A stretch of 47,253 bases of DNA from Draconibacterium sp. (GTDB lineage: Bacteria; Bacteroidota; Bacteroidia; Bacteroidales; Prolixibacteraceae). The notes under the pieces were generated by a model. The model saw only the letters and a list, made by a program, of their open reading frames with translations, searched no databases and was not told the origin of the DNA. Of the stretch, positions 17,351 to 42,839 are shown piece by piece; the stretch's first letter is position 1; each line of letters starts with the position of its first letter. The translations under genes were made by a program, and so were the position numbers. The DNA lies in contig WOYV01000130.1 of the NCBI GenBank assembly GCA_011620585.1, positions 1-47,253 of the forward strand, written 5' to 3'.

Positions 17351-17407
17351 AGTAATAAAGATGTAATAATAATGCAATCAATTTGTAATCTCTTTGGTTC
17401 ACCTTTG
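17351..17407 (+). promoter_or_regulatory. Pho-box-like array plus -7 box before pit copy 2
   Basis: AGTAAT (17351), TGTAAT (17362), TGCAAT (17373) and TGTAAT (17384) are spaced by exactly 11 bp. After exactly 10 bp comes CACCTTTG (17400-17407), a -7-like box. Direct repeats at 11-bp phase just upstream of the core promoter are the known layout of PhoB sites in other phyla. That PhoB binds here is inference. Confidence 0.75.
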
Positions 17408-17477
17408 TTCCGACTAATAAAAATCAAACAAAAGACAATTCTTTGGCCGCATTAAAGAGCATATTCAATAACCTATA

Positions 17478-19745
17478 ATGGAAAAATTCTACCTCATTCT
17501 GACGATAGTTTTATTTGCATTGTCTATCTCCGATCTGATTGTTGGTGTCAGTAATGACGCAGTTAATTTTTTAAATTCAGCGATTGGTTCAAAAGCTGCC
17601 CCAAAGTGGGTAATTTTTTTAGTGGCAAGTTTGGGAGTGTTAATTGGTGCTACTTTTTCGAACGGAATGATGGAGGTGGCCCGAAAAGGAATTTTTCATC
17701 CCGATCAGTTCTACTTTGCCGAAATCATGGTAATCTTTTTGTCGGTAATGATCACAGATGTGATCCTGCTCGATATGTTTAATACCTTTGGGATGCCCAC
17801 ATCTACAACTGTTTCGATTGTTTTTGAACTACTTGGTTCTGCTGTGGCTGTTTCTGTAGTAAAAATAAAAATGGCGGGTGGAATGGTATTTATGGAGTTA
17901 TCGAAATACATTAATTCCGAAAAAGCGCTCGCCATTATTTTCGGGATTTTGCTTTCGGTTTTTATTGCGTTTACAGTTGGAGCTATTGTGATGTATATTA
18001 CACGCTTACTCTTTTCGTTTGAATACAAAAAATCGCTTAAATATTTTGGCTCGGCATACGGAGGTATCGCCATTACTGCCATTACATATTTTATGTTGGT
18101 AAAAGGTATTCACGGTTCGTCGTTTTCCGAACTTCCGCTTGAAAGTGGAGAAACACTTGAAGAATGGATCAAACAAAATACCTTACTGGTTTTATTGGGG
18201 AGTTTTGCCGGCTGGACCTTTATTATCCAGGTATTAAGCCGGCTATTTAAAATAGATATTCTGAAACTGATTGTGCTGGCAGGAACATTCGCTTTGGCCA
18301 TGGCATTTGCCGGTAACGACCTTGTGAACTTTATTGGTGTACCGGTGGCAGGCTTTACATCGTTTGAAGCGTGGCGGGCAGCAGGAGGAATATCGCCGGA
18401 GAGTTTTTCGATGGAAATGCTGGCCGGAAAAGCAAGCACCCCGGTTTATATGTTGCTGATTTCGGGTTTAATTATGGTACTTACCCTCATCCTTTCAAAA
18501 AAAGCCCAGGCAGTTACCGAAACGGAAGTGAACCTTGGCCGGCAATCGGAAGGGATGGAACGTTTTGGTTCTTCACTGGTTGCCAGGTTATTGGTTCGAA
18601 GTTCAATGCGTTTCAATCAGCGAATTGAAAAAGTAATCCCTACAGTAATAAGTACAGCGCTGCAAAGACGTTTTACTCCGGTTTTACTCGGCCCCGCCGG
18701 CGACTTAAATACACCGGCATTTGATAAACTTCGGGCTTCGGTAAACCTGGTGGTGGCCAGTATTCTTATTGCGCTGGCAACATCAATGAAGCTGCCTTTG
18801 TCGACAACCTATGTAACTTTCATGGTAGCTATGGGTTCTTCACTTTCCGACCGTGCCTGGGACCGCGAAAGTGCGGTTTACCGAATTTCCGGTGTTTTTG
18901 CCGTAATTGGGGGGTGGTTCTTAACTGCGTTAATCGCTTTAACCGTTTCGGGTGTAATTGCCGCATTAATTTCTTTAGGTGGAAAAATATTCATCTTTGT
19001 TTTTATTGCCATCGCGATATTTATGGTACTTCGGACACAACTCATTTTCAGAAAACGTCGTGAGAAGGTTAAAGCCAATGAAGTCCAACCATTTGAAGAA
19101 GACGACGAAGTAGATAAAGTAGTTAATAAAAGTCGAAAACATTGTGTTCAGGCTATCGAATCGGGCAGCAAAATATATGCAATTAGCCTACACGCTTTTT
19201 TAAACGAAGACCTGGGAGAATTAAGAAAAGGCCTTGGACTCAAAGACGAGTTGAATACAAAATCAAAAAAGTTAAAAAACAAAATTTTAACGATACTGTC
19301 AAAAATTGAAAACCATGTCGATTCCGGGCATTTCTATGTTCAGGTTGTCGATTATCAGCGCGAAATTGCCCACGCACTTAATTTCCTGACGAATCCTTTG
19401 TTTGAGCACCTCGATAATAACCACAAACCTTTTAATACGCAACAGGAAGCAGAATTGTCGGAACTGGTTTCAGGGATCCAGGACTTCTTCGATTTGGCTT
19501 TGCAAATAGTAAGTGAAGACAAATTCGCTGAAATTGATTCGCTGGTTAAAAAGAGGGATCTAATTTTTGAAAAGTTGTATAAAAACGAAAAAGTACAAAT
19601 CAAACGAATCAAGGAACAAAACGTAAATACACGGAATTCGATGTTATATTTCAATATCAACAGCGAAACTAAAAATCTGTTGTTACATACCATTAACATG
19701 GTAAAATCACACCGCGATTTTGTACTGTACTCTGAAAAAAAGTAA
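17478..19745 (+). CDS. Pit-family inorganic phosphate transporter with fused C-terminal helical domain, copy 2
   Basis: A 755-residue paralogue of the preceding gene, closely similar through the membrane part. It has the same signatures (GVSNDAVNFLNSAIG, GNDLVNFIGVPVAGF, LPLSTTYVTFMVAMGSSLSDRAWDR) and the same fused helical C-terminal domain (about residues 530-755), which has diverged more. Substrate is phosphate by family. It is preceded by a clear four-unit Pho-box-like array, so this copy is probably the starvation-induced one, whereas copy 1 looks constitutive. The final 97 bp of this gene recur as a decayed copy at 21460-21556. Confidence 0.92.
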   Translation: MEKFYLILTIVLFALSISDLIVGVSNDAVNFLNSAIGSKAAPKWVIFLVASLGVLIGATFSNGMMEVARKGIFHPDQFYFAEIMVIFLSVMITDVILLDMFNTFGMPTSTTVSIVFELLGSAVAVSVVKIKMAGGMVFMELSKYINSEKALAIIFGILLSVFIAFTVGAIVMYITRLLFSFEYKKSLKYFGSAYGGIAITAITYFMLVKGIHGSSFSELPLESGETLEEWIKQNTLLVLLGSFAGWTFIIQVLSRLFKIDILKLIVLAGTFALAMAFAGNDLVNFIGVPVAGFTSFEAWRAAGGISPESFSMEMLAGKASTPVYMLLISGLIMVLTLILSKKAQAVTETEVNLGRQSEGMERFGSSLVARLLVRSSMRFNQRIEKVIPTVISTALQRRFTPVLLGPAGDLNTPAFDKLRASVNLVVASILIALATSMKLPLSTTYVTFMVAMGSSLSDRAWDRESAVYRISGVFAVIGGWFLTALIALTVSGVIAALISLGGKIFIFVFIAIAIFMVLRTQLIFRKRREKVKANEVQPFEEDDEVDKVVNKSRKHCVQAIESGSKIYAISLHAFLNEDLGELRKGLGLKDELNTKSKKLKNKILTILSKIENHVDSGHFYVQVVDYQREIAHALNFLTNPLFEHLDNNHKPFNTQQEAELSELVSGIQDFFDLALQIVSEDKFAEIDSLVKKRDLIFEKLYKNEKVQIKRIKEQNVNTRNSMLYFNINSETKNLLLHTINMVKSHRDFVLYSEKK

Positions 19746-19886
19746 AACCTCTATTTTCCCAAACTTCAAAGGCCATCATAAGTTTATGAATTAAAGTTGT
19801 GGCTAAAATTTATTGAGGAATCATTTCGTGATTGTTGGATCGTAAAATCATGTCCTTAGTTCGTTTAGTAACTAATTTATTTGAAT

Positions 19887-19942
19887 TGTAACCAACTTTT
19901 AATGGTAGCTTAATTAACACAAAATCATAATGGCTAACTTTG
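19887..19942 (+). promoter_or_regulatory. Pho-box-like array plus -7 box before orphan gene
   Basis: TGTAAC (19887), TTTAAT (19898) and CTTAAT (19909) are at exact 11-bp steps. A fourth phase position (19920) has CAAAAT. TAACTTTG (19935-19942) fits TAnnTTTG and lies 36 bp before the ATG of the 19979 gene. The -7 box is good; the array is moderate. Confidence 0.45.
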
Positions 19943-19978
19943 AAAGGTCGAAGGGATTGTTTAAATTATTAGAATCGT

Positions 19979-20407
19979 ATGGAATCCTTTGCCAAGTTAC
20001 TGCATAAGTCAAATACATCCTTGATACACACCCCCCTTCCGGTGTATTTCTTTGGGATGCCAAACGGTAAAATATACATACTTTATGCCCGTTTCTATGA
20101 AGTGAAATTCGATAAATCGGATTTGGAATACGTAATTGCTGTGCACAAAGAGTTTGTTTTCGACGCACTGCAACATAAGGTAACTCCGTTAAATCCTGGT
20201 AAATATTCCAATCAGTCGTCAGTACATCTTTTCGATCAGGCTGAACCCAATTACAAAATAAAAGATGTCAAACGCAACATCGACTCATTCAAGGAAGCGG
20301 TTTTGCTGATAAACAAAAGAGCAGAAAATATGATGAGGAAGCAGGGAGAAAAAACGGTAAGACAGAACAAAAATGATAAACGCAGAAAGATTATTAATAC
20401 CTTATGA
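19979..20407 (+). CDS. Conserved-looking hypothetical protein, unknown family
   Basis: A 142-residue soluble protein that I do not recognise. There is no signal peptide and no membrane segment. The first 90 residues look like a mixed alpha/beta fold (VYFFGMPNGKIYILYARFYEVKF). The last 45 residues are strongly basic and probably helical (NKRAENMMRKQGEKTVRQNKNDKRRKI). It has a possible Pho-type promoter and sits with the next gene between pit copy 2 and the decayed pit 3' end, as if the pair had been inserted there. Confidence 0.55.
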   Translation: MESFAKLLHKSNTSLIHTPLPVYFFGMPNGKIYILYARFYEVKFDKSDLEYVIAVHKEFVFDALQHKVTPLNPGKYSNQSSVHLFDQAEPNYKIKDVKRNIDSFKEAVLLINKRAENMMRKQGEKTVRQNKNDKRRKIINTL

Positions 20408-20547
20408 TTTATCGGTCATTTTTTATTCCAATCGTTTCTGCTTACCAGATCATTAACTGTCGAGCCATTTTTAACGTTACGCAATCATTTTTTTTAATAA
20501 GCTCTTAATCCCAAAATAGTAAGATTTGCTATCAAAATAGGAAAGAA

Positions 20548-21255
20548 ATGGATTATTCTATAAAAATAAGTCAAAAGGATAAAATTAGCATGCTTCATTT
20601 GGTTCAAACTGTAATGGAAGAAAATGCCGCATTGTGGACCGATATAAAAACCTTAAACTGGGCGTTTACCCAATTTAAAAACAACAATCTGGAAATGCAG
20701 GAGCTCAGCTCTGAAACTGGCATAGAAGAGCCTGGACTTTCGTTTACCCTGGACAATAGTCGAAAGATTGTTATTGATTTGGCCCGTTCAATACAGAATG
20801 TTATCTGCGATTTTACTAATAACATGGAGGATAAGGCACTAATGGAGAAATTGAATCTTTTCAAGCCAGGTTCTACAAATTCTGACGATCGTGAATTAAT
20901 AGACCTTTGTGTGTCAACCATTAATTCCGCCGAACGACTTCATGGTATTTCAATAAATTCTCTCGAAAGTGAACTCGCCTTACTTAAAACAGCCAAACGC
21001 AATTTTGAGTTTTCGATAAATGAATTGAATGCCGCCCTCGATCGTAAAAACGAATCAGAGATAAGGATCATGGAACTAATAAATACAAATGATCAAATAC
21101 TTTGGACAAATCTTGATCTTCTGGTTTCCATTTTCGACCCGGCGAAGTCCGAATTTTATAAAGAATATACCGAGGCACGGCTAATTGCAATTTCTGAAAA
21201 GTGTAAGGGAAAAATGAAGGTTGAATACCAGGAACTGGAGGTAATTTCAGCATGA
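20548..21255 (+). CDS. Hypothetical all-helical protein, unknown family
   Basis: A 235-residue soluble protein that I do not recognise. The sequence is predicted to be almost fully helical, with heptad-like stretches (ESELALLKTAKRNFEFSINELNAAL). There is no signal peptide. The length and helical character recall PhoU-like or histidine-kinase-partner bundles, but no motif supports either. Upstream, TTTAAT (20493) and CTTAAT (20504) are 11 bp apart with an imperfect -7 box (AAGATTTG, 20521-20528), too weak to call. It is one of two orphan genes lying between pit copy 2 and its decayed 3' duplicate. Confidence 0.55.
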   Translation: MDYSIKISQKDKISMLHLVQTVMEENAALWTDIKTLNWAFTQFKNNNLEMQELSSETGIEEPGLSFTLDNSRKIVIDLARSIQNVICDFTNNMEDKALMEKLNLFKPGSTNSDDRELIDLCVSTINSAERLHGISINSLESELALLKTAKRNFEFSINELNAALDRKNESEIRIMELINTNDQILWTNLDLLVSIFDPAKSEFYKEYTEARLIAISEKCKGKMKVEYQELEVISA

Positions 21256-21459
21256 GTTTGGTAGTCTGATCGTGTTCTTTCAGAAAATCCGGGAGCTAAA
21301 GTAATGGATTGGTCATTTCTCTTAAGGTCATTTTTTCTCCTGATCATTTTCCAAACTACTGCTTCCCATTCATAAACTCCCTAAACTGTTTGGCAAGCCT
21401 GTCAAATTGATTGCTGATTTATGAAAATGGAATTCTGTAATCAAAAAAATTGATTTATT

Positions 21460-21556
21460 GATTTCAATCTACGATAACAACAAATCTGTTGTTAATACCA
21501 TTAGCATGGTAAAATCACACCGCGATTTTGTTCCCTATTCGCTTACCAAAAAGTAA
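21460..21556 (+). pseudogene. Decayed duplicate of the 3' end of a pit gene
   Basis: The stretch from about 21482 is nearly identical for about 50 bp to the end of pit copy 2 (19673 onward). The reading continues to a matching stop codon (21554-21556): HTINMVKSHRDFVLYSEKK in pit 2 against NTISMVKSHRDFVPYSLTKK here. A one-base deletion (CATACC to ATACC, near 21495) breaks the frame and there is no gene body upstream. The rest of the 584-bp gap 21256-21840 holds a terminator, a Pho-like promoter and the leader of the TonB receptor gene. I see nothing recognisable in 21256-21459. Confidence 0.8.
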
Positions 21557-21578
21557 TTAATTGAACCCAGATATGGGA

Positions 21579-21609
21579 AAGTCCTGCGCATTGTGCAGGA
21601 CTTTTTTTT
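21579..21609 (+). terminator. Strong intrinsic terminator after the pit remnant
   Basis: AAGTCCTGC and GCAGGACTT form a perfect 9-bp stem, followed by eight T. It lies 22 bp after the remnant's stop codon, as expected for the original terminator of a pit gene. Confidence 0.9.
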
Positions 21610-21610
21610 A

Positions 21611-21688
21611 TGTAACAAAGGTGTAATAATCACATCCAAAATGTAAAATTATCGTAATCGCAAATTAATAAAATGTGAGCTATTTCTG
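21611..21688 (+). promoter_or_regulatory. Split Pho-box-like array before TonB receptor 1
   Basis: TGTAAC (21611) and TGTAAT (21622) are 11 bp apart. TGTAAA (21642), CGTAAT (21653) and ATTAAT (21664) are also at 11-bp steps, but out of phase with the first pair by 2 bp. An 11-bp spacer leads to TATTTCTG (21681-21688), one base off TAnnTTTG. An alternative -7 box is TTTCTTTG at 21702-21709. Confidence 0.55.
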
Positions 21689-21840
21689 GTTCGATATTAA
21701 TTTTCTTTGCTGTTGAAAAGGAATAAAACTCTTAGGCGAAAAAGGCAATATTTATTTAGAAACGTACAGAATCAAAATTGTAATACGAGGTTATTAATGG
21801 AGGCTTATTTGATCTAAGAATTACCAAAACAACTAATTAT

Positions 21841-24800: not shown

Positions 24801-24993
24801 TTACTACGACAAGGTTTCGTATCTCGATGCCAACATCGACATCTTTATTACTAAAAAACTTGTACTTTTTGCCTCAGCTAACAACCTGTTAAACGAATTA
24901 CAACGTACTTATCAGTGGAAACCGGAATATACATATTCGTCGCTTGAAAACGGAACCAGGATTCAGGCAGGTTTGAAATTCAACATCTTTTGA
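21841..24993 (+). CDS. TonB-dependent receptor 1 with calcium-type repeats in a barrel loop
   Basis: A 1050-residue outer-membrane receptor. It has a signal peptide (about 1-21), a carboxypeptidase-D-regulatory-like domain (about 30-115, GAIIGRIVDSEDLPLPGAAV), a plug (about 125-240, FPDPNIGDALKRIPGIHV, IRGTDPSKSTISING) and a 22-strand-type barrel ending in Phe (GLKFNIF). One predicted extracellular loop carries two DxNxDGxxD motifs, DANGDGVND (409-417) and DENNDGIDD (427-435), typical of calcium-binding thrombospondin-3/EF-hand-like loops. There is no SusD gene. Downstream on the same strand come a beta-helix protein, an acid phosphatase and a phytase, so the likely cargo is phosphate or an organophosphate such as phytate. 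The substrate is inferred from neighbours only. Confidence 0.92.
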   Translation: MKKFTLFLWMLFLMSSITGFAENDNDGNRGAIIGRIVDSEDLPLPGAAVFIKSLNKGVVTDNDGVYRILGLSKGNYIVTVSYVGFKPVEKEVSVKEGASVSLDFQLSDNEIIGEVVVKGSAGGVLKALNQQLNAPSIINVISSDQVGSFPDPNIGDALKRIPGIHVQYDQGEAKLISIRGTDPSKSTISINGTAMPGTGDNRAVGVDAIPADMVQAIEVSKAITPDMDGDAIGGAVNLVTRKAPYSKRLSVSAATGYNFLTSDPQVNGNVIFGDRYFNDKFGVIGSASVYDQKLGSNKHNSSWEPTMVGNTEYFVPKYLNIEQTLMERLRQSYTLGLDFKFNDNHSIAFTGIFNDYKDWRKTYTLRIDDIGGGYKGNWLMTDEYNDIKSFEQVFDDAEAFEDEIDSDIDANGDGVNDTTGKPYIILDENNDGIDDNSGAMYVNYDPMNPTFHPELERHVYAGGNEKGGDLIHKKIYNWGFEGEHILGVVKANWKFAYIKTIEDEPDSRDFELQSYNEKTVVMDFSDPRYLGLDKGFGIDNVSQQIAGRTSADIDENRVDTWELDGFKGRERRSNVDQLLYQVDFELPIIQGKYENKLKFGAKARTMDKSRKTLGRVKWKPLDNDPESPGVFNWKWMWSEFAQNMEDVSSAFNNSNYSVGQSVTADWVGQQNTSYDGPTDRWKIVTLYNSEIADGYTASEDIYSGYVMSTQKLGDKLSLLAGLRLEQTQVNYHGFEYFERAETFDEVSANQDYISILPGVHLKYTPTPKSVFRLAYTKTISRPNYRDIVPYTKCDINDMEIFFGNPDIKPTLANNFDLLGEYYLGSTGLLSAGVFMKNIQDYEVQIIDVLPWEEVSPYLPTPDEIDARTDNTDAQKADYRKRYNKASGKDFESFTPGNGGNANLFGVEVAFQKKLDFLPGVLSNFSVYANFTHNWVDNKDNEYELSGTAEDILNASLAYDNKLFSARLSYNYTSDFLTSNGQTEQYDVYYDKVSYLDANIDIFITKKLVLFASANNLLNELQRTYQWKPEYTYSSLENGTRIQAGLKFNIF

Positions 24994-28902: not shown

Positions 28903-28948
28903 CTTAATTTTACTGTAACGGGCACTTAACATCAATACCGTTACTTTG
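28903..28948 (+). promoter_or_regulatory. Pho-box-like array plus -7 box before the lipid-remodelling pair
   Basis: CTTAAT (28903), TGTAAC (28914) and CTTAAC (28925) are at exact 11-bp steps. A spacer of exactly 10 bp leads to TTACTTTG (28941-28948). ATTATT at the next upstream phase (28892) is weaker. Because the -7 box covers the GTG at 28948, the real start codon must be the ATG at 28969. Confidence 0.65.
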
Positions 28949-28968: not shown

Positions 28969-29817
28969 ATGAATAAGAGACAGATCGAAGTTTCAGTTAT
29001 TTCTGACTTGCATTTGGCAACCCATGCATGTAAACCGAAACAGATATTGGGTTATCTCAAATCTATTCAGCCTGAAATTCTGGTACTAAACGGAGACATT
29101 ATCGATTCATGGCGTTTCACAAGAAATTATTTCCCCAAAAGTCATCTGAAAGTGATCCGCCAGCTCATAAAAATGATGGAGAAGGGAGCACGGATGATTT
29201 ACATTACCGGCAATCACGATGAATTTCTTCGAAAGTTTAGCGGAACAAAAGTAGGACAGCTCGAAATCGTGAACCAGTATATTTTTCACCACGATGCACG
29301 TAAAACCTGGATTTTCCATGGCGATATTTTTGACGATATTATCCACAATTCAAAAGGGCTGGCCAGGTTCGGAGCCGCGCTTTACGGTTTGCTGACCCTC
29401 GCCAACAAAGCCCTGAACCGGATACTAAGGTCGCTGGGGAAGAAGGAAATAATCATTTATAAAAGCCTGAAGAAAAACCTGGTGAAAGAAAAGGCGGCAC
29501 CTTCGAAGTTCGAAAGTCAGTTGGCCAAGTCGGCTGTTTCGCAGGGGTACCACGAAGTGATTTGCGGGCACACACACCTTCCAAAAATTAAGAACATTGA
29601 AGTTTCAGGCTGCCAGATCCGTTATATTAACTGTGGCGACTGGGTGGAACATTTTACCGCAGCCGAATTTTATCACAACCAGTGGCATTTGTATACACAC
29701 AGTGATGTTGAAACCGAAGAATCGAATGAAGATTCGGAAATTCCAGCGGAACGATTGATTTACCAAACGCTCCTGGAAGAACTAACATTTCAAAACGCAA
29801 TATCCATTTCATCGTGA
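28969..29817 (+). CDS. plcP: Calcineurin-like phosphoesterase, PlcP-type (LpxH-like fold)
   Basis: A 282-residue cytoplasmic or peripheral protein with the full metal-site set: SDLHL (D13, H15), GDIID (42-46), GNHDE (81-85), HGD (117-119) and GHTHLP (200-205). By fold it is close to LpxH, the lipid A UDP-diacylglucosamine pyrophosphatase. But the next gene, overlapping by 4 bp, is a glycosyltransferase and the promoter looks PhoB-controlled. This is the known context of PlcP, a phospholipase C that removes the head group from membrane phospholipids under phosphate starvation. I therefore favour PlcP over LpxH; the choice is inference. The GTG at 28948 is rejected as start because it lies in the -7 box. 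Confidence 0.75.
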   Translation: MNKRQIEVSVISDLHLATHACKPKQILGYLKSIQPEILVLNGDIIDSWRFTRNYFPKSHLKVIRQLIKMMEKGARMIYITGNHDEFLRKFSGTKVGQLEIVNQYIFHHDARKTWIFHGDIFDDIIHNSKGLARFGAALYGLLTLANKALNRILRSLGKKEIIIYKSLKKNLVKEKAAPSKFESQLAKSAVSQGYHEVICGHTHLPKIKNIEVSGCQIRYINCGDWVEHFTAAEFYHNQWHLYTHSDVETEESNEDSEIPAERLIYQTLLEELTFQNAISISS

Positions 29818-30905
29818 AAATTTTATATGCTATTCAGGGAACCGGAAACGGCCACTTGGCCCGGGCAACAGAAATCATTCCGCACTTACAAAAATTTGGC
29901 GAAGTAGATATTTTGGTTAGCGGTATCCAGGGAGATATTAACTTGCCATTCGAGGTAAAATATAAGTTTTACGGACTTAGTTTTATGTTTGGGAAAAAGG
30001 GCGGTGTTGATTATTGGCAAACAGTTTTTAAATCCAGGCCCTTCGGTTTGTTGCGGGATATATTGCAGGTGCCGGTAGAAACATATGATCTGGTTCTGAA
30101 TGATTTTGAGCCTGTTTCGGCCTGGGCCTGTCGTTTAAAAGGCATTAGGTGTGTGTCGGTCAGCCATCAGTCTGCAGTATTGCATCCATTGGCGCCTCGT
30201 CCTCCGAAAGACAATTTCATCGCCCGGATAATTTTAAAATATTATGCCCCTGCCAAAGTAAACTACGGGTTTCATTTCAGGGCTTTGGATTTTTATCATT
30301 TTACCCCTGTTATCCGTTCATCCATCCGAAATGCATCCCCACGCAACAAAGATCATTACACGGTGTATTTGCCTGCATACAGCGATGCAATGATTGAGAA
30401 ACTATTGAGCCGGTTCGCAGAAGTAAAATGGGAAGTCTTTTCGAAAAAATGCCGTCACGAATATCAGATTGATAATATTAGGTTTTCTCCGGTTTCACTC
30501 GATGGGTTTCATGATTCGTTTGTTAATTGTAGTGGTTTACTGTGCAACGCTGGTTTCGAAGCTCCGTCTGAAGCTATCTTTTTGGGTAAAAAACTGTGTG
30601 TAATTCCCATGAAAAACCAATATGAGCAAGCTTGTAACGCCGCCATGCTAGCTGATATGGGGATTAGCGTTGCGAATAATGCAAATGAATTACCATCTGT
30701 TCTGAAAAGATGGATAAAGGAATCTTATTCGATACGGATAAAATTTCCGGATCAAACGCATGACATATTACGAAGAATAATGATGGAGAAACGGGAGACA
30801 AAAACAAGCAAAACAGTCATCCCTGAAAAAATACTGATTCGTGCTATAAATTGTATAGCAGCGTCCAGCCCTGTATCCAGTCATCTTCGCCAAAGGCCCC
30901 TTTAA
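29814..30905 (+). CDS. Glycosyltransferase, probable diacylglycerol glycosyltransferase (Agt-like)
   Basis: A 363-residue GT-B type protein starting with GTG inside GTGA, which overlaps the stop of the phosphoesterase gene. Features: MKILYAIQGTGNGHLARATEII (nucleotide-sugar/acceptor loop), VLNDFEPVSAWACRLKG, and the donor site LLCNAGFEAPSEAIFLGKKLCVIPMKNQYEQACNA. The last has the MurG/MGDG-synthase layout of a Gly/Glu loop followed by PxxxQxEQ. It matches the MJ1255/VC2487-type glycosyltransferases. Coupled to a PlcP-like enzyme, it could add sugar to the released diacylglycerol, making phosphorus-free glycolipids. Its final 62 bp overlap the convergent beta-helix lipoprotein gene, so the tail (ASSPVSSHLRQRPL) may be non-conserved. 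Confidence 0.72.
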   Translation: MKILYAIQGTGNGHLARATEIIPHLQKFGEVDILVSGIQGDINLPFEVKYKFYGLSFMFGKKGGVDYWQTVFKSRPFGLLRDILQVPVETYDLVLNDFEPVSAWACRLKGIRCVSVSHQSAVLHPLAPRPPKDNFIARIILKYYAPAKVNYGFHFRALDFYHFTPVIRSSIRNASPRNKDHYTVYLPAYSDAMIEKLLSRFAEVKWEVFSKKCRHEYQIDNIRFSPVSLDGFHDSFVNCSGLLCNAGFEAPSEAIFLGKKLCVIPMKNQYEQACNAAMLADMGISVANNANELPSVLKRWIKESYSIRIKFPDQTHDILRRIMMEKRETKTSKTVIPEKILIRAINCIAASSPVSSHLRQRPL

Positions 30906-32165: not shown

Positions 32166-33161
32166 TTACAATTTAACTTCGAGATCAAAGAAAATAAAAG
32201 CTTTGGTTTCGCCATTGGCAGCATAAGGGACCCAGTCGTGGTAATCGAGCGCCATTTTTATTTTTTTTATGGGTTGAAACTGGATACCGGCCACAAAGGC
32301 CGAACCGTCGTTGGCAAGATTCCACGGCGAGCTTTCACCTTCCAATTTGTTTGATGCCATTCTGTCGAAACGTGCGAACAACTGGTATTTTGATGTGATG
32401 TTGTATTTCCCGTATACAGAGAATCCGTATCGATTGCGATCTTCTTTCCATTTTTCTTTGGTTCGGTAAAGCGCTTCGCCGGCAAGGTTGGCTTTCGCCT
32501 TAAAATCATACGATAGAAAAATATGATAGGTCGATTGCAGCATTTCATCGCTGGTCATATCATAGTACCACCGTGTGGTCAGATTTTTTATGGGTTTAAG
32601 CGTGCTTCCAATAGCATATTTGAAAATTCCATCGGTTTGAACGTTGTTATAGCCTTCGCCGTTCATAATGGTAAAGTCGACATCCCAAAAATCGGTAAAA
32701 GCATAATGGAGGTTCATTCCAAGATCGGCTGAAGCACCTATCGAATATTCATCGGCCAGTGTTTTCATTAGGTATCGGCGTTCCCAAACATTTTCCATCA
32801 GTTTATACTGGCGCAATCCAATCAAACCAAATTCAGCTTCAAACCTGTTCTGCTTGTATCGTAAGTAAGCATTCTTGAAATAAGCATAACGTCGCGCTTT
32901 GGCGTATTCCGATAAATCTTCGGGGCTACCTATATCTAAATTTATTTTGGCATAAAAGTTTGGGCTAAAAGTATATTCGTAACCAATGTAACCACGTACC
33001 AGTTCAAAAGCTGATTCGGAGGCAGAGGCAGAGGTAACTCCCTGGTGAAAATTTGCAAATATTACAGCAAAAGGATTGCCCGATGGTTGAAAAGTGTCGG
33101 TTTGAGAAGAAGCCCCCAAAAAAGCATAGGTCGCCAGGGCCAGCAGCAGTGTTTTTTTCAT
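32166..33161 (-). CDS. Porin O/P-like outer-membrane beta-barrel
   Basis: A 331-residue protein when started at the ATG at 33161 (signal peptide MKKTLLLALATYAFLGASSQ). An upstream TTG start at 33191 is rejected because a perfect -7 box (TATATTTG on this strand, 33196-33189) covers it. The mature chain alternates polar and aromatic residues (LVRGYIGYEYTFSPNFYAKINLD, LTTRWYYDMTSDE, YGFSVYGKYNITSKYQLFARFDRM) and ends FIFFDLEVKL, as in porins of the phosphate-selective O/P family. It lies between a phosphate-type two-component system and a beta-helix lipoprotein. Phosphate selectivity is inferred from family and context. Confidence 0.75.
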   Translation of the reverse strand: MKKTLLLALATYAFLGASSQTDTFQPSGNPFAVIFANFHQGVTSASASESAFELVRGYIGYEYTFSPNFYAKINLDIGSPEDLSEYAKARRYAYFKNAYLRYKQNRFEAEFGLIGLRQYKLMENVWERRYLMKTLADEYSIGASADLGMNLHYAFTDFWDVDFTIMNGEGYNNVQTDGIFKYAIGSTLKPIKNLTTRWYYDMTSDEMLQSTYHIFLSYDFKAKANLAGEALYRTKEKWKEDRNRYGFSVYGKYNITSKYQLFARFDRMASNKLEGESSPWNLANDGSAFVAGIQFQPIKKIKMALDYHDWVPYAANGETKAFIFFDLEVKL

Positions 33162-33196: not shown

Positions 33197-33254
33197 TAGG
33201 TTAATCGAAATGTCATGTTTTATTAATTAATATGTAATGAATTGAAACTTAGAA

Positions 33255-33293
33255 AGTAATCGAATTGTAATATAAATGTAATAAAAATGCAAT
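33255..33293 (+). promoter_or_regulatory. Pho-box-like array between porin operon and phoB-like gene 2
   Basis: AGTAAT (33255), TGTAAT (33266), TGTAAT (33277) and TGCAAT (33288) are at exact 11-bp steps. In the same phase further upstream lie TGTAAT (33233) and TGTCAT (33211), the latter identical to the E. coli Pho-box core. The array points to the phoB-like gene, but the -7 box after it (GGTTTTTG, 33302-33309, 8-bp spacer) is poor. The transcript would have a leader of about 150 nt. The 309-bp gap contains nothing else recognisable. Confidence 0.65.
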
Positions 33294-33470: not shown

Positions 33471-34148
33471 ATGGAAGAAAATAACCGAATACTTATTGTA
33501 GATGACGAAAAAGATCTTTGTGAGATTCTTCAGTTTAATCTCGAAAGCGAAGGTTTTGAAATCGATATTGCGCACTCGGGCGAGGATGCATTAAAGCAGG
33601 ATCTCCAGGATTACGACTTGATTTTGCTCGATGTAATGATGGAAGGCGTTTCGGGTTATAAGGTGGCCAATACCATTCGGAAAGAGCTTAAACTTACAGT
33701 GCCCATAATTTTTCTGACTGCCAAAATCGAAGAAAATGATATTCTCACAGGGTTCAATGTTGGGGGCGACGATTATATTGCCAAGCCTTTCTCGATTAAA
33801 GAAGTTGTAGCAAGGATAAAGGCAATTTTAAAACGGGGTACCGTTACCGGGCAGGAATCAAACACAATTGGGGTGGGCGATTTAAAAATCGATCTCAAAA
33901 AAAAGATCATCACTATTGGTGGCGAAAACATCAACCTTACACGCAAGGAATTCGAGATACTTTCGTTGTTAGCCAAGAACATGGGGCAATACATTAGCCG
34001 CGAAGAAATTTTAAAACGCATTTGGAAAGACGATGTGATTGTAACCGAACGAAACGTAGATGTTAACATTGCACGACTTCGTAAAAAGATCGGAGAATAT
34101 GGGGCCAGTATCAAGGGTAAATCGGGATATGGCTATTGTTTTCAATAG
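33471..34148 (+). CDS. PhoB-like response regulator (system 2)
   Basis: A 225-residue OmpR/PhoB-family regulator. The receiver domain (residues 6-122) has D11/D12, phospho-acceptor D54, FLTAK and AKPF. The residue after DVMM is Glu (DVMMEG) instead of the usual Pro. The winged-helix domain (about 130-225) ends SGYGYCFQ. The start at 33471 is chosen because residues before it (from a TTG at 33435) do not belong to the receiver fold. The kinase gene follows after 21 bp. Position between porin and TonB receptor genes, and the Pho-like array upstream, make this the best candidate for the local PhoB. Confidence 0.85.
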   Translation: MEENNRILIVDDEKDLCEILQFNLESEGFEIDIAHSGEDALKQDLQDYDLILLDVMMEGVSGYKVANTIRKELKLTVPIIFLTAKIEENDILTGFNVGGDDYIAKPFSIKEVVARIKAILKRGTVTGQESNTIGVGDLKIDLKKKIITIGGENINLTRKEFEILSLLAKNMGQYISREEILKRIWKDDVIVTERNVDVNIARLRKKIGEYGASIKGKSGYGYCFQ

Positions 34149-34169
34149 AAACAAATACTTGGCAAAGCA

Positions 34170-35930
34170 GTGAAACGGTCTTTCAGGGGCGAAATATTTC
34201 TCTATTACATTATCGTTTTTGTTTTCTTCACGGTAACAGTGCTCGTTTTTCAATTCGAACGCGAACGAAAATACAAGACCTCTCAGCTCGAAAACACACT
34301 GGATAATATTACCGAAGTTACCTACAAATTTATTCAACAAAATAATCTGATCGGGAAGAACGAGGTTTCGAGAGTTGCCGAACTTATTAGTATCTTACCC
34401 GAACCCAATACACGAATTACGGTCATCGATAAAAACGGGAAAGTATTGTACGATAGTTTCGTGAAAAACTACCCATTGATGGAAAATCATATTGCGCGGC
34501 CCGAAGTGGTAAAAGCCATCAAAGAGGGGAATGGTGCATTTATACGTACATCGGCAACAACAAAACAGGATTTCTATTATTATGCCCGTCTATATCCTGA
34601 TTGTTTTGTCAGAGCTGCCCTGGTTTATGATGTAAATCTGAAAAGCTTCCTGAAAACAAGCCGGATTTTTATCACTTTCATGGTGGTGCTTTTTATTCTT
34701 GTGGGAATTGTTTTGGTTTGGGTTACCTTTAAACTATCCGATACAATTACCAAGCTTAAAGACTTTGCGGTTAGGGCAGGTCACAACGAATTAGTGGAAT
34801 ACGACACCCAATTCCCTGAAAATGAATTGGGAATAATTAGTACACAGATTATAGAAATATACAATAAGCTGAAAAAAACAAAAGATGACCTGGCCAACGA
34901 AAAAGAGAAACTCTTCAACCACCTTGATGCACTTGATGAGGGAATCGCCTTTTTCTCGTCAAGTAAGATTATGACTTTGTCGAACGGAAAGTTCATCGAG
35001 ATCGTCAATCTTTTCTCAAAAAAGGAAGTGATTTCCTTGGAAAAAATGTTAGACAGTACGTCGTTTAACAAGCTAAATAACTTTATTGACCAGCACATTG
35101 GGAAAACACCTGGCCAGGGCGAATCGTTGGCTAAACTGGACTATACTGTCTCGAAAGAAGAAAAATTCTTTAGAATACAATCGATTATATTTGCCGACAA
35201 CAGCTTCGAAGTTGTGATCACCGATGTAACCCGGCTCGAGAAACGCAGGTTAATGAAACAACAACTTACCTCGAACATTGCACACGAACTTAAAACACCG
35301 CTTTCTTCTATTCGTGGCTACCTCGAAACCATTCTCGAAAACTGGCCCATCCCCGAAGAAAAGCAAAAGTATTTTCTCGAAAAAGCCTTTTTCCAATCCG
35401 AAAGATTAACCTCGTTAATCAACGATATTTCGCTCATCAATAATATAGAAGATGCCGGCGAACTGTTTGAAATGAAAAGTATCGATGTTAAAAAAATCAC
35501 GAATGATGTGTACGAGTATTTTTCGAGTAAAATTGAACACAACAAGATTGAATTTATCGATGAGGTAAGTGCAGGAACAATTATTAACGGAAACGAATCT
35601 TTGTTGTTCTCGGTGTTCCAAAACCTGGTCGAGAATTCTATCACATACGGAGGGCCGGGTATCAGAATTCACATTAAGTGTTATCACCAGGACGAGCGTT
35701 ATTACTACTTCTCATTTTCAGACACGGGCAGTGGGATCCCAAAGGAACATCTTCCACGAATTTTCGAACGCTTTTACAGGGTTGAAAAAGGTCGTTCAAG
35801 ATCTACCGGCGGCACCGGCCTTGGTTTGGCAATCGTAAAAAATGCCATTATGCTGCACAACGGGAGAGTATCGGTACGCAACCGCCCTAAAGAAGGAGTA
35901 GAGTTTATGTTTTCTCTTTCGAAGAAATAA
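34170..35930 (+). CDS. PhoR-like sensor histidine kinase (system 2)
   Basis: A 586-residue kinase with GTG start. Transmembrane helices at about residues 9-26 and 168-188 enclose a periplasmic sensor region of about 140 residues (VIDKNGKVLYDS, EVVKAIKEGNGAFIR), which is PhoR/WalK-type. Then follow a HAMP-like linker, a PAS-like region (about 255-355), HisKA with H372 in SNIAHELKTPLSSIRGYL, and HATPase with NLVENSITYGG, DTGSGIPKEH and GGTGLGLAIVKN. It pairs with the regulator 21 bp upstream. Unlike the kinase of system 1 it has a real extracytoplasmic sensor domain. Confidence 0.88.
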   Translation: MKRSFRGEIFLYYIIVFVFFTVTVLVFQFERERKYKTSQLENTLDNITEVTYKFIQQNNLIGKNEVSRVAELISILPEPNTRITVIDKNGKVLYDSFVKNYPLMENHIARPEVVKAIKEGNGAFIRTSATTKQDFYYYARLYPDCFVRAALVYDVNLKSFLKTSRIFITFMVVLFILVGIVLVWVTFKLSDTITKLKDFAVRAGHNELVEYDTQFPENELGIISTQIIEIYNKLKKTKDDLANEKEKLFNHLDALDEGIAFFSSSKIMTLSNGKFIEIVNLFSKKEVISLEKMLDSTSFNKLNNFIDQHIGKTPGQGESLAKLDYTVSKEEKFFRIQSIIFADNSFEVVITDVTRLEKRRLMKQQLTSNIAHELKTPLSSIRGYLETILENWPIPEEKQKYFLEKAFFQSERLTSLINDISLINNIEDAGELFEMKSIDVKKITNDVYEYFSSKIEHNKIEFIDEVSAGTIINGNESLLFSVFQNLVENSITYGGPGIRIHIKCYHQDERYYYFSFSDTGSGIPKEHLPRIFERFYRVEKGRSRSTGGTGLGLAIVKNAIMLHNGRVSVRNRPKEGVEFMFSLSKK

Positions 35931-36040
35931 TAAGTATATTAATTTTTCCCTAAGATTGGCCCCTCAATTATTCCCTGCAAATAATTTCTAAATTATAGAA
36001 TATCAGAGATTTGCATGATTTCAAACAGGAATTCTGAAAA

Positions 36041-36097
36041 AGTAATCCATACTTAAACAATTTTTAATCAATCTGTAACATCTTGCCGCTTCCTTTG
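36041..36097 (+). promoter_or_regulatory. Pho-box-like array plus -7 box before TonB receptor 2
   Basis: AGTAAT (36041), CTTAAA (36052), TTTAAT (36063) and TGTAAC (36074) are at exact 11-bp steps, then exactly 10 bp, then TTCCTTTG (36090-36097). The two middle units are loose. The last unit is followed by ATC as at 28925 (TAACATC in both). Confidence 0.55.
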
Positions 36098-36138
36098 ACC
36101 CAGGGTTTTTAAGTCAAATCACTGCAATTTTTATATAA

Positions 36139-39006
36139 ATGACGAAATTTTTACTAAGCGGTTTTTTACTGCTGTTCTTTACCATGTCTCTTTATGCGCA
36201 GAATAGTGCGATTAAAGGTACGATTACGGATGTAAAAACAAATGAAACTTTAATTGGATCGACCATTCTTATTCAAGGAACCACACAAGGGGCAATTACA
36301 AATTTCGATGGTGAATTTATAATTCCGAAGGTGAACCCCGGGAAATACAATCTCGTGATTTCATTTATTTCTTACGACACCCAGATTGTTCAGGTTGAAG
36401 TAAATGAGGGTAGCGACACCCAGGTTGATATTTCATTAGCTCCTGCAACCATCGATATTGGTGAAGTTCAGGTGGTAGCAAAACGGAGGACTGATACTGA
36501 AATGTCGATGTTATCGAACCTGAAAGCTCAAAATATGATTGTGAACGGGATAAGTGCCCAGCAAATTTCGCGTAGCCAGGACAAAGACGCTGCCGAAGTA
36601 ATACGTCGTGTTCCTGGGATTACGATTACCGATGGTCGTTTTGTGGTTGTCAGAGGGTTGATAGAACGGTATAATTCGGTGATGCTCAACAATGCAACGG
36701 CGCCAAGTTTTGAGGCCGACAAAAGAGCTTTCTCATTCGACGCGATCCCCAGTGGATTAATTGACAACATTTTAATTTATAAAAGCCCATCGCCCGAATT
36801 ACCCGCCGATTTCGCCGGAGCTGCCATTGATGTTGTAACAAAAAGTGTTGCCGATGAAAACAGCCTGGTGATTACTTATGGTACAAAATACGTTCAAAAT
36901 ACTTCGTTTAGCAACGACTTTTCCAGCTACGCAGGTTCGAAAACCGATTGGTTGGGGTACGATAACGGAACACGCAGTATTCCAAAGGGAACACCTTCTT
37001 CAGAAGAATTCTCCAACCTGTATACCTGGGAAACAGTCGATGATTATTTACAAAAAACACCCGAAATAGTCAAGGTCTCCAAATTGTTTTCAAACAACTG
37101 GGAAACGGTTTCTAAAAAACCATTTCTTGATCAAAGCTTTTCGGTTACTTCTCAACGACGCTTCTTGCTGGGTAAAATTTCAATCGGGAATATTACCGCT
37201 GTTAATTACAGCTATGCGAGCGATTACACCCAAAGAGATCGTTTGGAATATCAGGGCTACGATGAAGGAACCGGAATTGTTACCAAGGATTTTGATTTCA
37301 AGGACGAACGATCGAAACAAACAGCCAAATTGGGTGTCATCTTTAACTGGAACATTATTTACGGCAAAAATCAGAAACTCGAATTCCGCAACTTCTTTAA
37401 CAATACAGGTGTAAATTCTACCAATATTAGAAACGGTGTAAACTATTACAATGTTGAAACACTCCGGCTTCATGATTTGAAGTTTGAAAACCGTTTGGTA
37501 TACTCAGCGCAACTCGCCGGAGAACAGATTTTCAACCAGGAACGCACGAAATTTAAGTGGATGGCCGGTTACGGTTTGACAAAAACTGATCAGCCGGATA
37601 ACCGTCGGGTTACATACGCATTTGAAGATAATGGGGACAGCGAGAACTTCGGAAATTATTTTATGCGTATTCAAAACGTTCCGAATGCCTATTTGGGAGG
37701 AAGATTATGGTTGAATATGAAAGAAGATATTTACGATGCAAAAGCTGATTTGGAACATAACTTCAAACTCTTTGGATCGGAAACTCCCTGGAAGGCAAAA
37801 ACCGGATTTTTTTACGAGCAAAAAACACGCGAATTCGGATCCCGTTTAATAGGCACTGTCGCATTGCGTAATCCACCTATCGATTTTTTCCAGCCGGTAT
37901 CAGATATTATGCAGCCCGAAAACTTCTTTTTCGACGAAACACCCCCGTATAATAAGCACGGACTTTCGTACCGCGATAATACACGCGCCAAGGATAGTTA
38001 TAATGCCGAAGACGAAATTGTGGCAGGATATATCAATTTGTTTATTCCGGTTACTCCAAAATTTAGTGTGTCGGGCGGTGTACGTGTTGAGAAATTCCAT
38101 CGGGAAATAACCGATTTCTACGAGCCAACAGATACTCCTGAATTATTTGATATTGTGCGTGATACCACCACCTTTTTCCCTTCCGTTAATTTAACGTATA
38201 ACATCACCGAAAAGCATGTATTACGAGCTTCATACGGGCAAACAGTTAACCGTCCCGAATTCAGGGAAATGTCGAATTTCGACTACCAGGATTTTGATAT
38301 GTTTGTGTTGGTTCACGGAAATGAAGATTTGAGAAGTGCTTACATTAAAAACTACGATATTCGCTACGAATGGTACCCAAATCAGGGAGAGATCATTTCA
38401 GTTGCAGGGTTTTACAAAGACTTTACGAATCCTATCGAGGTATTCTTAATTCCGGCTGGGACAGGATACGACTACAAACCTTTTAATACTGAAAACGCTT
38501 ATAGTATGGGGGTCGAAGTTGATATTCGAAAAAGATTGTCGGAGTTTGGTTCTTCAGCAGGCTTCTTCGGTTTCTTAAAAGACATTACGCTGATTTTTAA
38601 TACTTCGCTGATCAAAAGTGAGATTGATACCGAATTGGCTTTCGCTCGCGAAAAAACCAGGATCATGCAGGGTCAATCGCCATATATCATAAATCTGGGT
38701 GTCAATTATGCGGGAGAAAATAACGGTGTTGTTGTAAATGTATCATACAACAAAATTGGAAAACGTATTGCTTACGTTGGAACTCCTGTTAATCCTCACA
38801 CCTGGGAATTACCAAGAAATTCTCTTGATCTGACAGTTCAGAAAAATATTGGAGACCGCTTTTCGGTTAAAGCCGGGGTAAAAGATATTTTGAACGACCC
38901 CGTTCGCTTTGCACAATACTACGGATCGGATGAATCTAAAGAATTAAATACCTTGAAATATTTACCAAACAGGCAATTCTCTTTTACTATCCTATATAAA
39001 CTCTAA
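36139..39006 (+). CDS. TonB-dependent receptor 2
   Basis: A 955-residue outer-membrane receptor. It has a signal peptide (about 1-21, ends LYAQ), a carboxypeptidase-D-regulatory-like domain (about 24-110, SAIKGTITDVKTNETLIGSTI), a plug (about 135-245, SRSQDKDAAEVIRRVPGITI, VVRGLIERYNSVMLNN) and a barrel to the C-terminus (FSFTILYKL). There is no SusD partner; a T9SS-exported beta-helix protein starts 32 bp downstream and is probably co-transcribed. The upstream array and the neighbouring phoBR system point to phosphate-starvation control. Substrate unknown: phosphate, phosphonate or a phosphorylated polymer are all possible. Confidence 0.92.
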   Translation: MTKFLLSGFLLLFFTMSLYAQNSAIKGTITDVKTNETLIGSTILIQGTTQGAITNFDGEFIIPKVNPGKYNLVISFISYDTQIVQVEVNEGSDTQVDISLAPATIDIGEVQVVAKRRTDTEMSMLSNLKAQNMIVNGISAQQISRSQDKDAAEVIRRVPGITITDGRFVVVRGLIERYNSVMLNNATAPSFEADKRAFSFDAIPSGLIDNILIYKSPSPELPADFAGAAIDVVTKSVADENSLVITYGTKYVQNTSFSNDFSSYAGSKTDWLGYDNGTRSIPKGTPSSEEFSNLYTWETVDDYLQKTPEIVKVSKLFSNNWETVSKKPFLDQSFSVTSQRRFLLGKISIGNITAVNYSYASDYTQRDRLEYQGYDEGTGIVTKDFDFKDERSKQTAKLGVIFNWNIIYGKNQKLEFRNFFNNTGVNSTNIRNGVNYYNVETLRLHDLKFENRLVYSAQLAGEQIFNQERTKFKWMAGYGLTKTDQPDNRRVTYAFEDNGDSENFGNYFMRIQNVPNAYLGGRLWLNMKEDIYDAKADLEHNFKLFGSETPWKAKTGFFYEQKTREFGSRLIGTVALRNPPIDFFQPVSDIMQPENFFFDETPPYNKHGLSYRDNTRAKDSYNAEDEIVAGYINLFIPVTPKFSVSGGVRVEKFHREITDFYEPTDTPELFDIVRDTTTFFPSVNLTYNITEKHVLRASYGQTVNRPEFREMSNFDYQDFDMFVLVHGNEDLRSAYIKNYDIRYEWYPNQGEIISVAGFYKDFTNPIEVFLIPAGTGYDYKPFNTENAYSMGVEVDIRKRLSEFGSSAGFFGFLKDITLIFNTSLIKSEIDTELAFAREKTRIMQGQSPYIINLGVNYAGENNGVVVNVSYNKIGKRIAYVGTPVNPHTWELPRNSLDLTVQKNIGDRFSVKAGVKDILNDPVRFAQYYGSDESKELNTLKYLPNRQFSFTILYKL

Positions 39007-39038
39007 TCGTAATTGAATTTGCATAAATAATTTTAAAA

Positions 39039-41981: not shown

Positions 41982-42047
41982 GCAAAAAATATACAAAGGT
42001 CAACATAATTGCAGTGTTTGACGACTGTTGGAATTTAATTCCAGCTT

Positions 42048-42077
42048 AAACTCCGGATGAAAGTCCGGAGTTTTTTT
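42048..42077 (+). terminator. Intrinsic terminator after the T9SS beta-helix gene
   Basis: AAACTCCGGA and TCCGGAGTTT form a 10-bp stem with a 6-nt loop, running into seven T. Confidence 0.92.
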
Positions 42078-42177
42078 ATGAACAACACGGGTATCTCAGA
42101 TTACAGTTGTGTTAAATAAATATTTCATAAAAATTAAATTAATGTTACAAATAAATTACAATGCTTCAAATTATTCT

Positions 42178-42224
42178 TAACTTTGTATCAATAAACACAG
42201 AGTTAAACTAAAAAAGAAAGGAGG
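42178..42224 (+). promoter_or_regulatory. -7 box and consensus Shine-Dalgarno of the MORN-like gene
   Basis: TAACTTTG (42178-42185) is a perfect TAnnTTTG. AAAGGAGG (42217-42224) is a near-perfect Shine-Dalgarno 5 nt before the ATG, rare among genes in this window. Upstream, ATTAAA, GTTACA and ATTACA (42133, 42144, 42155) are 11 bp apart but read as Pho-like units only on the opposite strand. Confidence 0.5.
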
Positions 42225-42229
42225 CAACC

Positions 42230-42694
42230 ATGAAAAGGTTAGCATTGTTAGTTGGAGTTTTGATCTTGGCACTTACAGCTTATTCACAAAAATTGCAGGA
42301 AGTTGATGGCTTGTATTACCAAGATTCTAAATTGTACTCTGGGAATTTTATAACGTATTACGAAAATGGCAACATTAAAATGGAAGCCACTTTCCTTGAA
42401 GGCAAAAAGCATGGCGACTGCAAGTTGTATTTCGAGAATGGCAAACTAAATGAAATTCGTTCGTACCGTAACAACGAAATGGATGGAACCTGGTTGACAT
42501 TTAACAACCTGGGAGTGAAAATTGCAGAAGCTTCTTACGAAAATGGTAAGAAAAACGGCAATTGGTATGTTTGGGACGACGAAGGGATTTTAAAGTATGA
42601 GCTCTGTTATAAAAACGGAGAAAAGACAGGGATTTGGAAAAGCTACGATGACATGGGTGTAGTTATTAACGAAAGAGATTACACCAGTTTCTAA
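42230..42694 (+). CDS. Secreted MORN_2-repeat protein (YwqK-like)
   Basis: A 154-residue protein with a signal peptide (ends AYSQ, about residue 19). It contains about five MORN-variant repeats of the YENGxxKxEATFxxGKKHGxCKLYFENGK type. Such proteins are often labelled 'toxin-antitoxin system YwqK family antitoxin', but there is no toxin here and the signal peptide speaks against that. The function of secreted MORN_2 proteins is unknown. It is a single gene between two terminators, with a strong ribosome binding site suggesting high expression. Confidence 0.82.
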   Translation: MKRLALLVGVLILALTAYSQKLQEVDGLYYQDSKLYSGNFITYYENGNIKMEATFLEGKKHGDCKLYFENGKLNEIRSYRNNEMDGTWLTFNNLGVKIAEASYENGKKNGNWYVWDDEGILKYELCYKNGEKTGIWKSYDDMGVVINERDYTSF

Positions 42695-42723
42695 AAAATC
42701 TGAATTTATTTAAACACTGCATA

Positions 42724-42762
42724 AAACGTCTGCTTCCATTGGTATGCAGACGTTTCTTTTTA
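42724..42762 (+). terminator. Intrinsic terminator after the MORN-like gene
   Basis: AAACGTCTGC and GCAGACGTTT form a perfect 10-bp stem with a 12-nt loop, followed by CTTTTTT. Confidence 0.88.
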
Positions 42763-42782
42763 AGATTTTTATCATAGTCTTA

Positions 42783-42839
42783 ATTAATCGAATTGTAATA
42801 AAAACGTAATTCACGTGTAATCGCCGTACCGTAATTTTG
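42783..42839 (+). promoter_or_regulatory. Pho-box-like array plus perfect -7 box
   Basis: ATTAAT (42783), TGTAAT (42794), CGTAAT (42805) and TGTAAT (42816) are at exact 11-bp steps, then exactly 10 bp, then TAATTTTG (42832-42839), a perfect TAnnTTTG, 23 bp before the ATG. It is the most complete example of the design in the window. The stretch around TAATCGAATTGTAATA is shared with the array at 33255. Confidence 0.75.

Follow-up and report, generated by a model that had tools for sequence, protein, structure and literature searches.

The window, a 47,253-nt stretch of DNA from Draconibacterium sp. that was analysed as a whole (GenBank assembly GCA_011620585.1, contig WOYV01000130.1, positions 1 to 47,253), carries arrays of TGTAAT-like hexamers repeated every 11 bp upstream of several of its genes. 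We consider, with a probability of about 0.92, that these arrays are Pho boxes, that is, predicted binding sites of the phosphorylated response regulator PhoB encoded at 33471. They are very probably a local form of a switch already described in other bacteria, present in this bacterium and in its relatives, gut Bacteroides included. A first-pass annotation, made from the letters of the DNA alone, had proposed a phosphate-regulon operator on the basis of geometry and gene content, and this proposal gained support when the same architecture was found at pst, phoU, phoB, PiT, porin and TonB genes in a Bacteroides-like genus.

The array unit is a TGTAAT-like hexamer followed by 5 bp. At 17351, 33255 and 42783, four hexamers follow one another in steps that are all exactly 11 bp, as the first-pass annotation had it. 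The two looser sets that it described at 28903 and 36041 keep the 11-bp phase, but the one at 28903 has three units and not four. Its 10-bp register to a -7 box ending in TTTG, claimed for four of the five arrays, was seen at 17351, 28903, 36041 and 42783, the phoB array at 33255 being the exception. It had overlooked a six-unit array on the minus strand (42160-42100) and a weaker set on the plus strand (33211-33238). The 11-bp arrays of the window are far beyond chance: eight overlapping three-unit positions scoring at least 16/18 were found, where 200 dinucleotide shuffles gave 0.035 on average, and no such position was reached in 300 shuffles within intergenic segments. When periods of 7 to 21 were scanned at this score, sites in the window appeared at period 11 only. 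In the whole 3.94-Mb genome (G000), the four-unit pattern gave three matches, all in the window, and the reversed control gave none, while a looser three-unit pattern (up to three mismatches) gave 17 matches, 10 of them in the window, against four for the control. Three exact TGTAAT repeats had no match in 296 genomes of the phylum; this search is uninformative because the pattern is too strict, G000 itself having none.

Arrays were then counted in related genomes. For this, 23 phoB neighbourhoods amounting to 397 kb (20 loci of the same genus, L051 to L070, and three others) were fetched irrespective of the motif. At a score of at least 20/24, period 11 gave 63 four-unit positions, and of the remaining periods between 7 and 23 only the harmonic period 22 gave any, namely six; the reversed control gave 0. 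Loci L051 to L070 held 45 arrays, 23 of which had TTTG at exactly offset 10. In a larger set, which takes in loci chosen by a pattern containing the -7 element, this was the case for 44 of 80 arrays, against a background expectation of 0.68 per offset. The genes downstream of these 80 arrays were relatives of the small CarbopepD_reg gene (CarbReg) or of TonB2 (29), porin-like genes (18), PiT genes (9), phoB (9) and single other open reading frames (6), with nothing recognised behind the last nine. The pattern including the -7 element was also run on 31 same-genus genomes, and 84 matches were obtained in 29 of them, compared with four for the reversed control. They correspond to 71 promoters, 46 with at most one mismatch and 25 with two. 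Pho-locus relatives follow 42 of the 46 (CarbReg 17, porin-like 16, PiT 8, TonB1 1), the other four being a reversed array at a MORN-repeat gene, a contig end and two sites in genome G319. They also follow 13 of the 25 two-mismatch promoters; 11 of these are followed by something else, five of the 11 lying inside an opposite-strand open reading frame, and one stands at a contig end. The check proposed in the first-pass annotation, on array density at genes unrelated to phosphorus, thus came out in favour of the phosphate regulon. In the non-redundant, score-selected genus set, each of the three inner units has A at position 4 in all 38 cases, the exact frequencies being biased as the position matrix was partly selected by its own score.

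To define the targets, the upstream regions of orthologs were scanned in 59 fetched loci, including the window and some fetched for motif matches, a score of 20 or more being called strict. Matches starting beyond the first quarter of the query or overlapped by a better query were left out, as were upstream regions below 150 bp. The strict score was reached at CarbReg in 23 of 23 cases (reversed sequence 0/23), at pit2 in 5/5 and at porin-like genes in 17/26. When the window and L051 to L070 alone were taken, which were not chosen by motif, the counts were 14/14, 3/3 and 11/20, respectively. The small CarbopepD_reg gene is the most constant target in the genus. At TonB2, the strict score was reached in 5/24 (mean 17.7 versus 14.8 in reversed sequence), at plcP in 1/9 (mean best score 18.9 versus 14.2), at phoB in 3/27, at TonB1 (receptor gene 21841) in 1/6, this one being an 89%-identical ortholog in L118, and at a 27%-identity sigma-factor match in 1/3. 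It was never reached upstream of pit1 (13), phytase (12), phoR (27), glycosyltransferase (11), T9SS protein (13) or lplA (12) genes. The frequent lack of an array at phoB is due in part to the place of this gene inside an array-headed cluster, as in L062, where an array is followed by the porin-like gene, pstS, pstC, pstA, pstB, phoU, phoB and phoR, all in one direction. In L051, L053, L055 and L063, where pstC was not found at the phoB locus, phoB and the porin-like gene point away from each other, as they do in the window, and phoB has an array to itself, made of six units in all but the window.

A PhoB family search across the phylum (E 1e-75) gave matches in 5 of 247 genomes, G000 included, and breadth was therefore examined within the order. 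The phoB promoters of two genomes from another family each carry four units with the -7 octamer 10 bp on, and in G321 the units TGTAAC/TGTAAT/TTTCAC/CTTAAC are followed after 10 bp by TTACTTTG and then by pstC. A PstC alignment scan returned 80 named records, from which 68 pst loci were kept and 12 loci, of archaea and divergent bacteria, left out. Three-unit TGTAAY positions scoring at least 16 numbered 29 at period 11 and 0 to 1 at the other periods of 8 to 16, the reversed control giving four at period 11; 21 of the 68 loci had a listed match in their upstream part. Arrays lying no more than about 650 bp from the PstC match were seen, among others, in Mediterranea massiliensis, Bacteroides timonensis and several uncultured Bacteroides, and in metagenome-assembled genomes (MAGs) of Prevotellaceae and Tannerellaceae. 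A pattern modelled on the pst array, with no -7 element, was run on 41 genomes of a Bacteroides-like genus, the one to which G238 belongs (the PstC proteins of G238 and a Bacteroides sp. MAG share 98% identity). It gave 78 matches in 31 of the 41 genomes and two for the control. Twenty of these sites were fetched (from three genomes the full set of four sites, together with the more unusual variants), and 19 were found before PiT (5), TonB receptor (4), Porin_O_P (4), phoB (3), pstC (2) and phoU (1) genes, the last one preceding a methyltransferase gene. Thirty sites in search-delivered loci, which overlap with the 20, were associated with PstC (15), PhoU (6), porin, TonB, PiT and PhoB (2 each) or none of these (1). 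Although the query did not contain the -7 element, TTTG lay 10 + 11t bp on (t = 0 to 3) in 41 of 45 distinct sites of this genus.

These counts also bear on the idea that the repeats are an A+T-rich promoter texture phased at 11 bp, the helical repeat, with no dedicated regulator. The units and most spacers are indeed A/T-rich, and many lie upstream of -7 boxes. However, reversed patterns of the same composition and phasing gave 4 matches versus 84 in the genus and 2 versus 78 in the Bacteroides-like genus, and most other genes at the same loci have no array. We hold this idea to be next to impossible.

The regulator encoded at 33471 scores 319.8 bits against NF053854, the family of PhoB of Bacteroidota, for which the curated cut-off is 270. 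It was compared with Escherichia coli PhoB from the MG1655 record, this protein not being among the 35 relatives listed by a search of solved structures. In the E. coli PhoB-DNA structure, Arg201 contacts a guanine while Thr194 and Val197 contact thymines (PMC3973317; papers are cited here by PubMed Central accession, from the accessible part of their text). All 32 PhoB domains compared keep Arg201 and Val197, and in 26 of the 32 Thr194 is replaced by Asn. The residues of the sigma-contact, or transactivation, loop are E177, W184, G185, V190, E191 and D192 (PMC3973317); in the alignment of the window PhoB, E177, W184 and V190 are kept, D192 is Glu, and G185 and E191 are changed.

A second candidate reader is the paralogous regulator RR2, acting with the kinase at 13469-14524 instead of PhoB or beside it. 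Lower-scoring PhoB-like matches, taken as RR2, occur in 24 of 25 genus genomes, all but G314, and thus also in G319, where arrays are present and no phoBR was found. At TonB2 and plcP, the boxes contain both TGTAAY and nTTAAT units. Moreover, RR2's own promoter has 11-bp-phased units 10 bp before a -7-like octamer (13397-13442), which are probably its own operator; in relatives, the RR2 promoter units are of the TTTAAA/GTTAAT/TTTAAT type, again 10 bp before the -7 box. However, RR2 has Lys at the Arg201 position in 11 of 11 domains (four more, two with Arg and two with Lys at 201, were assigned to neither protein), and G is found in only 4 of the 24 units of its non-redundant promoter set. G315 has RR2-type matches, yet neither phoBR over the cut-off nor an array match was found there, and in the Bacteroides-like genus the arrays precede phoB itself. 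Because of Lys201 and G315, we regard reading by RR2 as very improbable, and PhoB stays the predicted reader of the arrays.

PhoB would act as follows. Each TGTAA(T/C) hexamer with its 5 bp would be an 11-bp half-site for one PhoB DNA-binding domain, and the units would be read in head-to-tail order. Under phosphate scarcity, PhoR would phosphorylate PhoB, which would line up along three to six or more units. Since at most promoters the nearest unit is followed after 10 bp by the TAnnTTTG box that the housekeeping sigma factor uses, PhoB would occupy the -33 region and hold RNA polymerase there by contact with sigma region 4, as in E. coli. The inducible PiT transporter, the porin-like protein (with pst-phoU-phoBR in relatives), phoB and the TonB receptors would be switched on in this way, as would the phosphoesterase/glycosyltransferase pair and the small CarbopepD_reg protein.

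Known Pho boxes offer several points of comparison. That of E. coli is also made of 11-bp direct repeats with a TGT-A- core upstream of pst, phoB and the phosphate porin gene phoE, and lies 10 bp from the -10 box. Of the features by which a Pho box is recognised, 11-nt units, a TGTCA(T/C)-like core, a place at phosphate-gene promoters and a fixed distance to the core promoter are present in our arrays, while binding by the phosphorylated regulator and phosphate-responsive expression are predicted for them. The Bacteroidales arrays differ in their three to six or more units and in their core element, TAnnTTTG and not TATAAT. Among 112 E. coli units from 56 sites (PMC10294691), 80 have C at position 4 and 31 have A, and TGTAAT or TGTAAC units are present at E. 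coli phoE, yibT and mglB according to the same text. TGTCAT and TGTCAC units also occur in relatives. The difference from TGTCAT put forward in the first-pass annotation is mainly one at position 4, and the hexamer is less unlike that of E. coli than claimed, because A at this position is already an E. coli minority. Rather than a new word, the Bacteroidales unit represents a move within the range of pho-box variants already known; what is new is a consensus for the order, the length of the arrays, their constant register to TAnnTTTG and the set of targets. The PhoP boxes of Bacillus, Streptomyces and Mycobacterium work with other core promoters. They share 11-bp-type direct repeats and a regulator of the OmpR/PhoB family (PMC4415409, PMC4832192), the Streptomyces core being GTTCACC (PMC4415409).

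Closer to our strain, Bacteroides fragilis PhoB binds its own pstC promoter, as found by electrophoretic mobility shift assay on a 512-bp fragment, and controls pstC expression and survival in abscesses; the phoB mutant has only trace pstC expression, and PhoB is needed at low phosphate (PMC3547664). The main text of that paper holds no occurrence of binding site, consensus, motif or direct repeat. B. fragilis PhoB belongs to the same order as ours and, although B. fragilis itself is absent from the 80 PstC records, the arrays stand at pstC promoters of related Bacteroides. In Riemerella anatipestifer, a response regulator of the same phylum also named after the phosphate system, PhoP, has the motif TTTAACA by DNA affinity purification sequencing, described as ArcA-like in the accessible text (PMC9603813); its TTTAAC-type core is different and, compared by motif alone, nearer to the RR2 promoter units than to TGTAAT. 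Flavobacterium johnsoniae genes of comparable types are induced at low phosphate (PMC8115612). For a group of marine bacteria that included a flavobacterium, bioinformatic prediction has placed putative Pho boxes in plcP gene clusters, and the accessible text gives no Bacteroidetes Pho-box consensus (PMC4796936). As the first-pass annotation had supposed, no described Pho box for the group was found in the accessible literature searched, which also included PMC9723704 and PMC7366714, subscription papers and motif databases lying outside its scope.

Several points weigh against the assignment of the arrays to PhoB. What the sequences show is the array with its period, register, conservation and targets, along with PhoB and part of its contact residues, whereas PhoB binding, the response to phosphate, the contact with sigma and the direction of the effect are inferred. 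The phoB array at 33255 has no TTTG octamer at 10 bp, the strict score is rare at phoB, TonB2 and plcP, and the pst genes of the genome that holds the window (contig C58) lack an array. Nothing independent links the CarbopepD_reg and TonB targets to phosphate. Arg219 of E. coli PhoB is not conserved in the alignment. Genome G319 (same genus, 96% complete; loci L114 to L117 and L190) has clear arrays, and neither phoB nor phoR was found there over the family cut-offs; this may be an assembly gap, and two of its array sites lie within 210 bp of contig ends. Outside the genus, three Flavobacterium and one Rufibacter pst loci had no match in the listed upstream scan, and the genus-tuned pattern gave 103 matches across the order against 48 for the reversed control, 22 of which came from two genomes. 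Since this is about two-fold over control, claims beyond the genus rest on the phoB, pst and Bacteroides-like loci. Finally, the site counts overstate the number of events because sites of related species are not independent.

Some arrays are reversed relative to the gene that they precede. Upstream of the MORN-repeat gene, such arrays were found in the window and in five relatives (at 612 in L051, 2429 in L053, 2405 in L055, 17228 in L056 and 3477 in L063) of 25 MORN upstream regions examined. Their distance to a -7-like box is 17 bp (window, L056, L063) or 29 bp (L051, L053, L055) and not 10; in the window, the edge of the 42160-42100 array is 17 bp from the octamer TAACTTTG at 42178-42185, plus strand. 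As read from their sequence, these arrays represent a second promoter architecture. The weaker 33211-33238 set is likewise reversed relative to the divergent porin-like gene and lies 14 bp from the octamer TATATTTG (33196-33189, minus strand) before that gene. PhoB might bind such sites and repress, or act at a distance, rather than activate. The distances of 17, 29 and 14 bp instead of 10 fit with this possibility, while the cases are few, and we put it forward tentatively. A promoter for an antisense RNA driven from the reversed 42160 array was considered and rejected, as that strand has no TTTG at the register and TAACTTTG serves the MORN gene.

Taken jointly, the observations could be read in three parts, a reading to which we give even odds. 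Bacteroidales PhoB would assemble head to tail in long arrays, on three to six or more TGTAAY-like units, locked 10 + 11n bp from the TAnnTTTG of an unusual primary sigma factor and replacing a weak -33 element; reversed arrays may control neighbouring or divergent genes; and two paralogous regulators would share the 11-bp grid, a single residue at 201 distinguishing them, with Arg reading a G at unit position 2 and Lys the lack of it. The arrays also lend themselves to studying, in a simple setting, how an activator cooperates with a sigma factor of weak -33 element. The consensus and the fixed register would make the Pho regulon readable from sequence in Bacteroidales, including gut Bacteroides and unculturable MAGs, and they point to unstudied targets such as the 116-amino-acid CarbopepD_reg protein and the MORN protein.

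Table 1. Positions of arrays, octamers and genes in the window.
Feature	Positions	Strand	Remarks
Array of second PiT gene	17351..17389	+	4 units, AGTAAT/TGTAAT/TGCAAT/TGTAAT
-7 octamer CACCTTTG of second PiT gene	17400..17407	+	10 bp past final unit
Array before metallophosphoesterase	28903..28930	+	3 units, CTTAAT/TGTAAC/CTTAAC
-7 octamer TTACTTTG of metallophosphoesterase	28941..28948	+	10 bp past final unit
Array upstream of phoB	33255..33293	+	4 units, AGTAAT/TGTAAT/TGTAAT/TGCAAT
Array of TonB receptor gene 36139	36041..36079	+	4 looser units, AGTAAT/CTTAAA/TTTAAT/TGTAAC
-7 octamer TTCCTTTG of TonB receptor gene 36139	36090..36097	+	10 bp past final unit
Array of small CarbopepD_reg gene	42783..42821	+	4 units, ATTAAT/TGTAAT/CGTAAT/TGTAAT
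-7 octamer TAATTTTG of small CarbopepD_reg gene	42832..42839	+	perfect; 10 bp past final unit
Weaker set, reversed relative to porin-like gene	33211..33238	+	3 units, TGTCAT/ATTAAT/TGTAAT
Reversed array upstream of MORN-repeat gene	42100..42160	-	6 units
Candidate weak operator before TonB receptor 21841	21611..21669	+	TGTAAC/TGTAAT + TGTAAA/CGTAAT/ATTAAT
11-bp-phased units at RR2 gene	13397..13442	-	TGTAAA/ATTAAT/CTTTAC
Paralogous regulator RR2	12679-13380		OmpR-family pair with kinase 13469-14524, adjoining first PiT gene
Second PiT-family phosphate transporter	17478..19745	+	PF01384
PlcP-like calcineurin-type phosphoesterase	28969..29817	+	PF12850
Glycosyltransferase, after phosphoesterase	29814-30905		PF13528; TIGR00661 below cut-off
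Porin-like protein	32166..33161	-	PF07642 match below cut-off
phoB	33471..34148	+	predicted to read the arrays; exceeds NF053854 cut-off; has Arg201
phoR sensor kinase	34170..35930	+	NF053855 over cut-off
TonB-dependent receptor	36139..39006	+	TonB2; with CarbopepD_reg domain
MORN-repeat gene	42230-42694
Small CarbopepD_reg-domain protein	42863..43213	+	116 amino acids; signal-like N-terminus by eye

Some further features of the genes were seen (Table 1). The two PiT genes are in tandem (the first at 14953-17226) and 64% identical, with the operator at the second only; they are perhaps a housekeeping and an inducible copy. The longest open reading frame of the phosphoesterase has a GTG start at 28948, overlapping the proposed -7 box, and the ATG in the table is the more likely start. 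By analogy, the phosphoesterase/glycosyltransferase pair suggests lipid remodelling. The L062 relative of the porin-like protein has no Pfam or NCBIfam family match. The candidate operator at 21611-21669 is a degenerate site, its two sub-arrays (2 + 3 units) being offset by 20 bp and out of phase, and TTTCTTTG at 21702-21709 is in phase with it. Lastly, in L133 a VTC-domain gene (4905-5666, minus strand), presumably of the polyphosphate-polymerase type, directly follows a two-mismatch array and is a candidate further phosphorus target.

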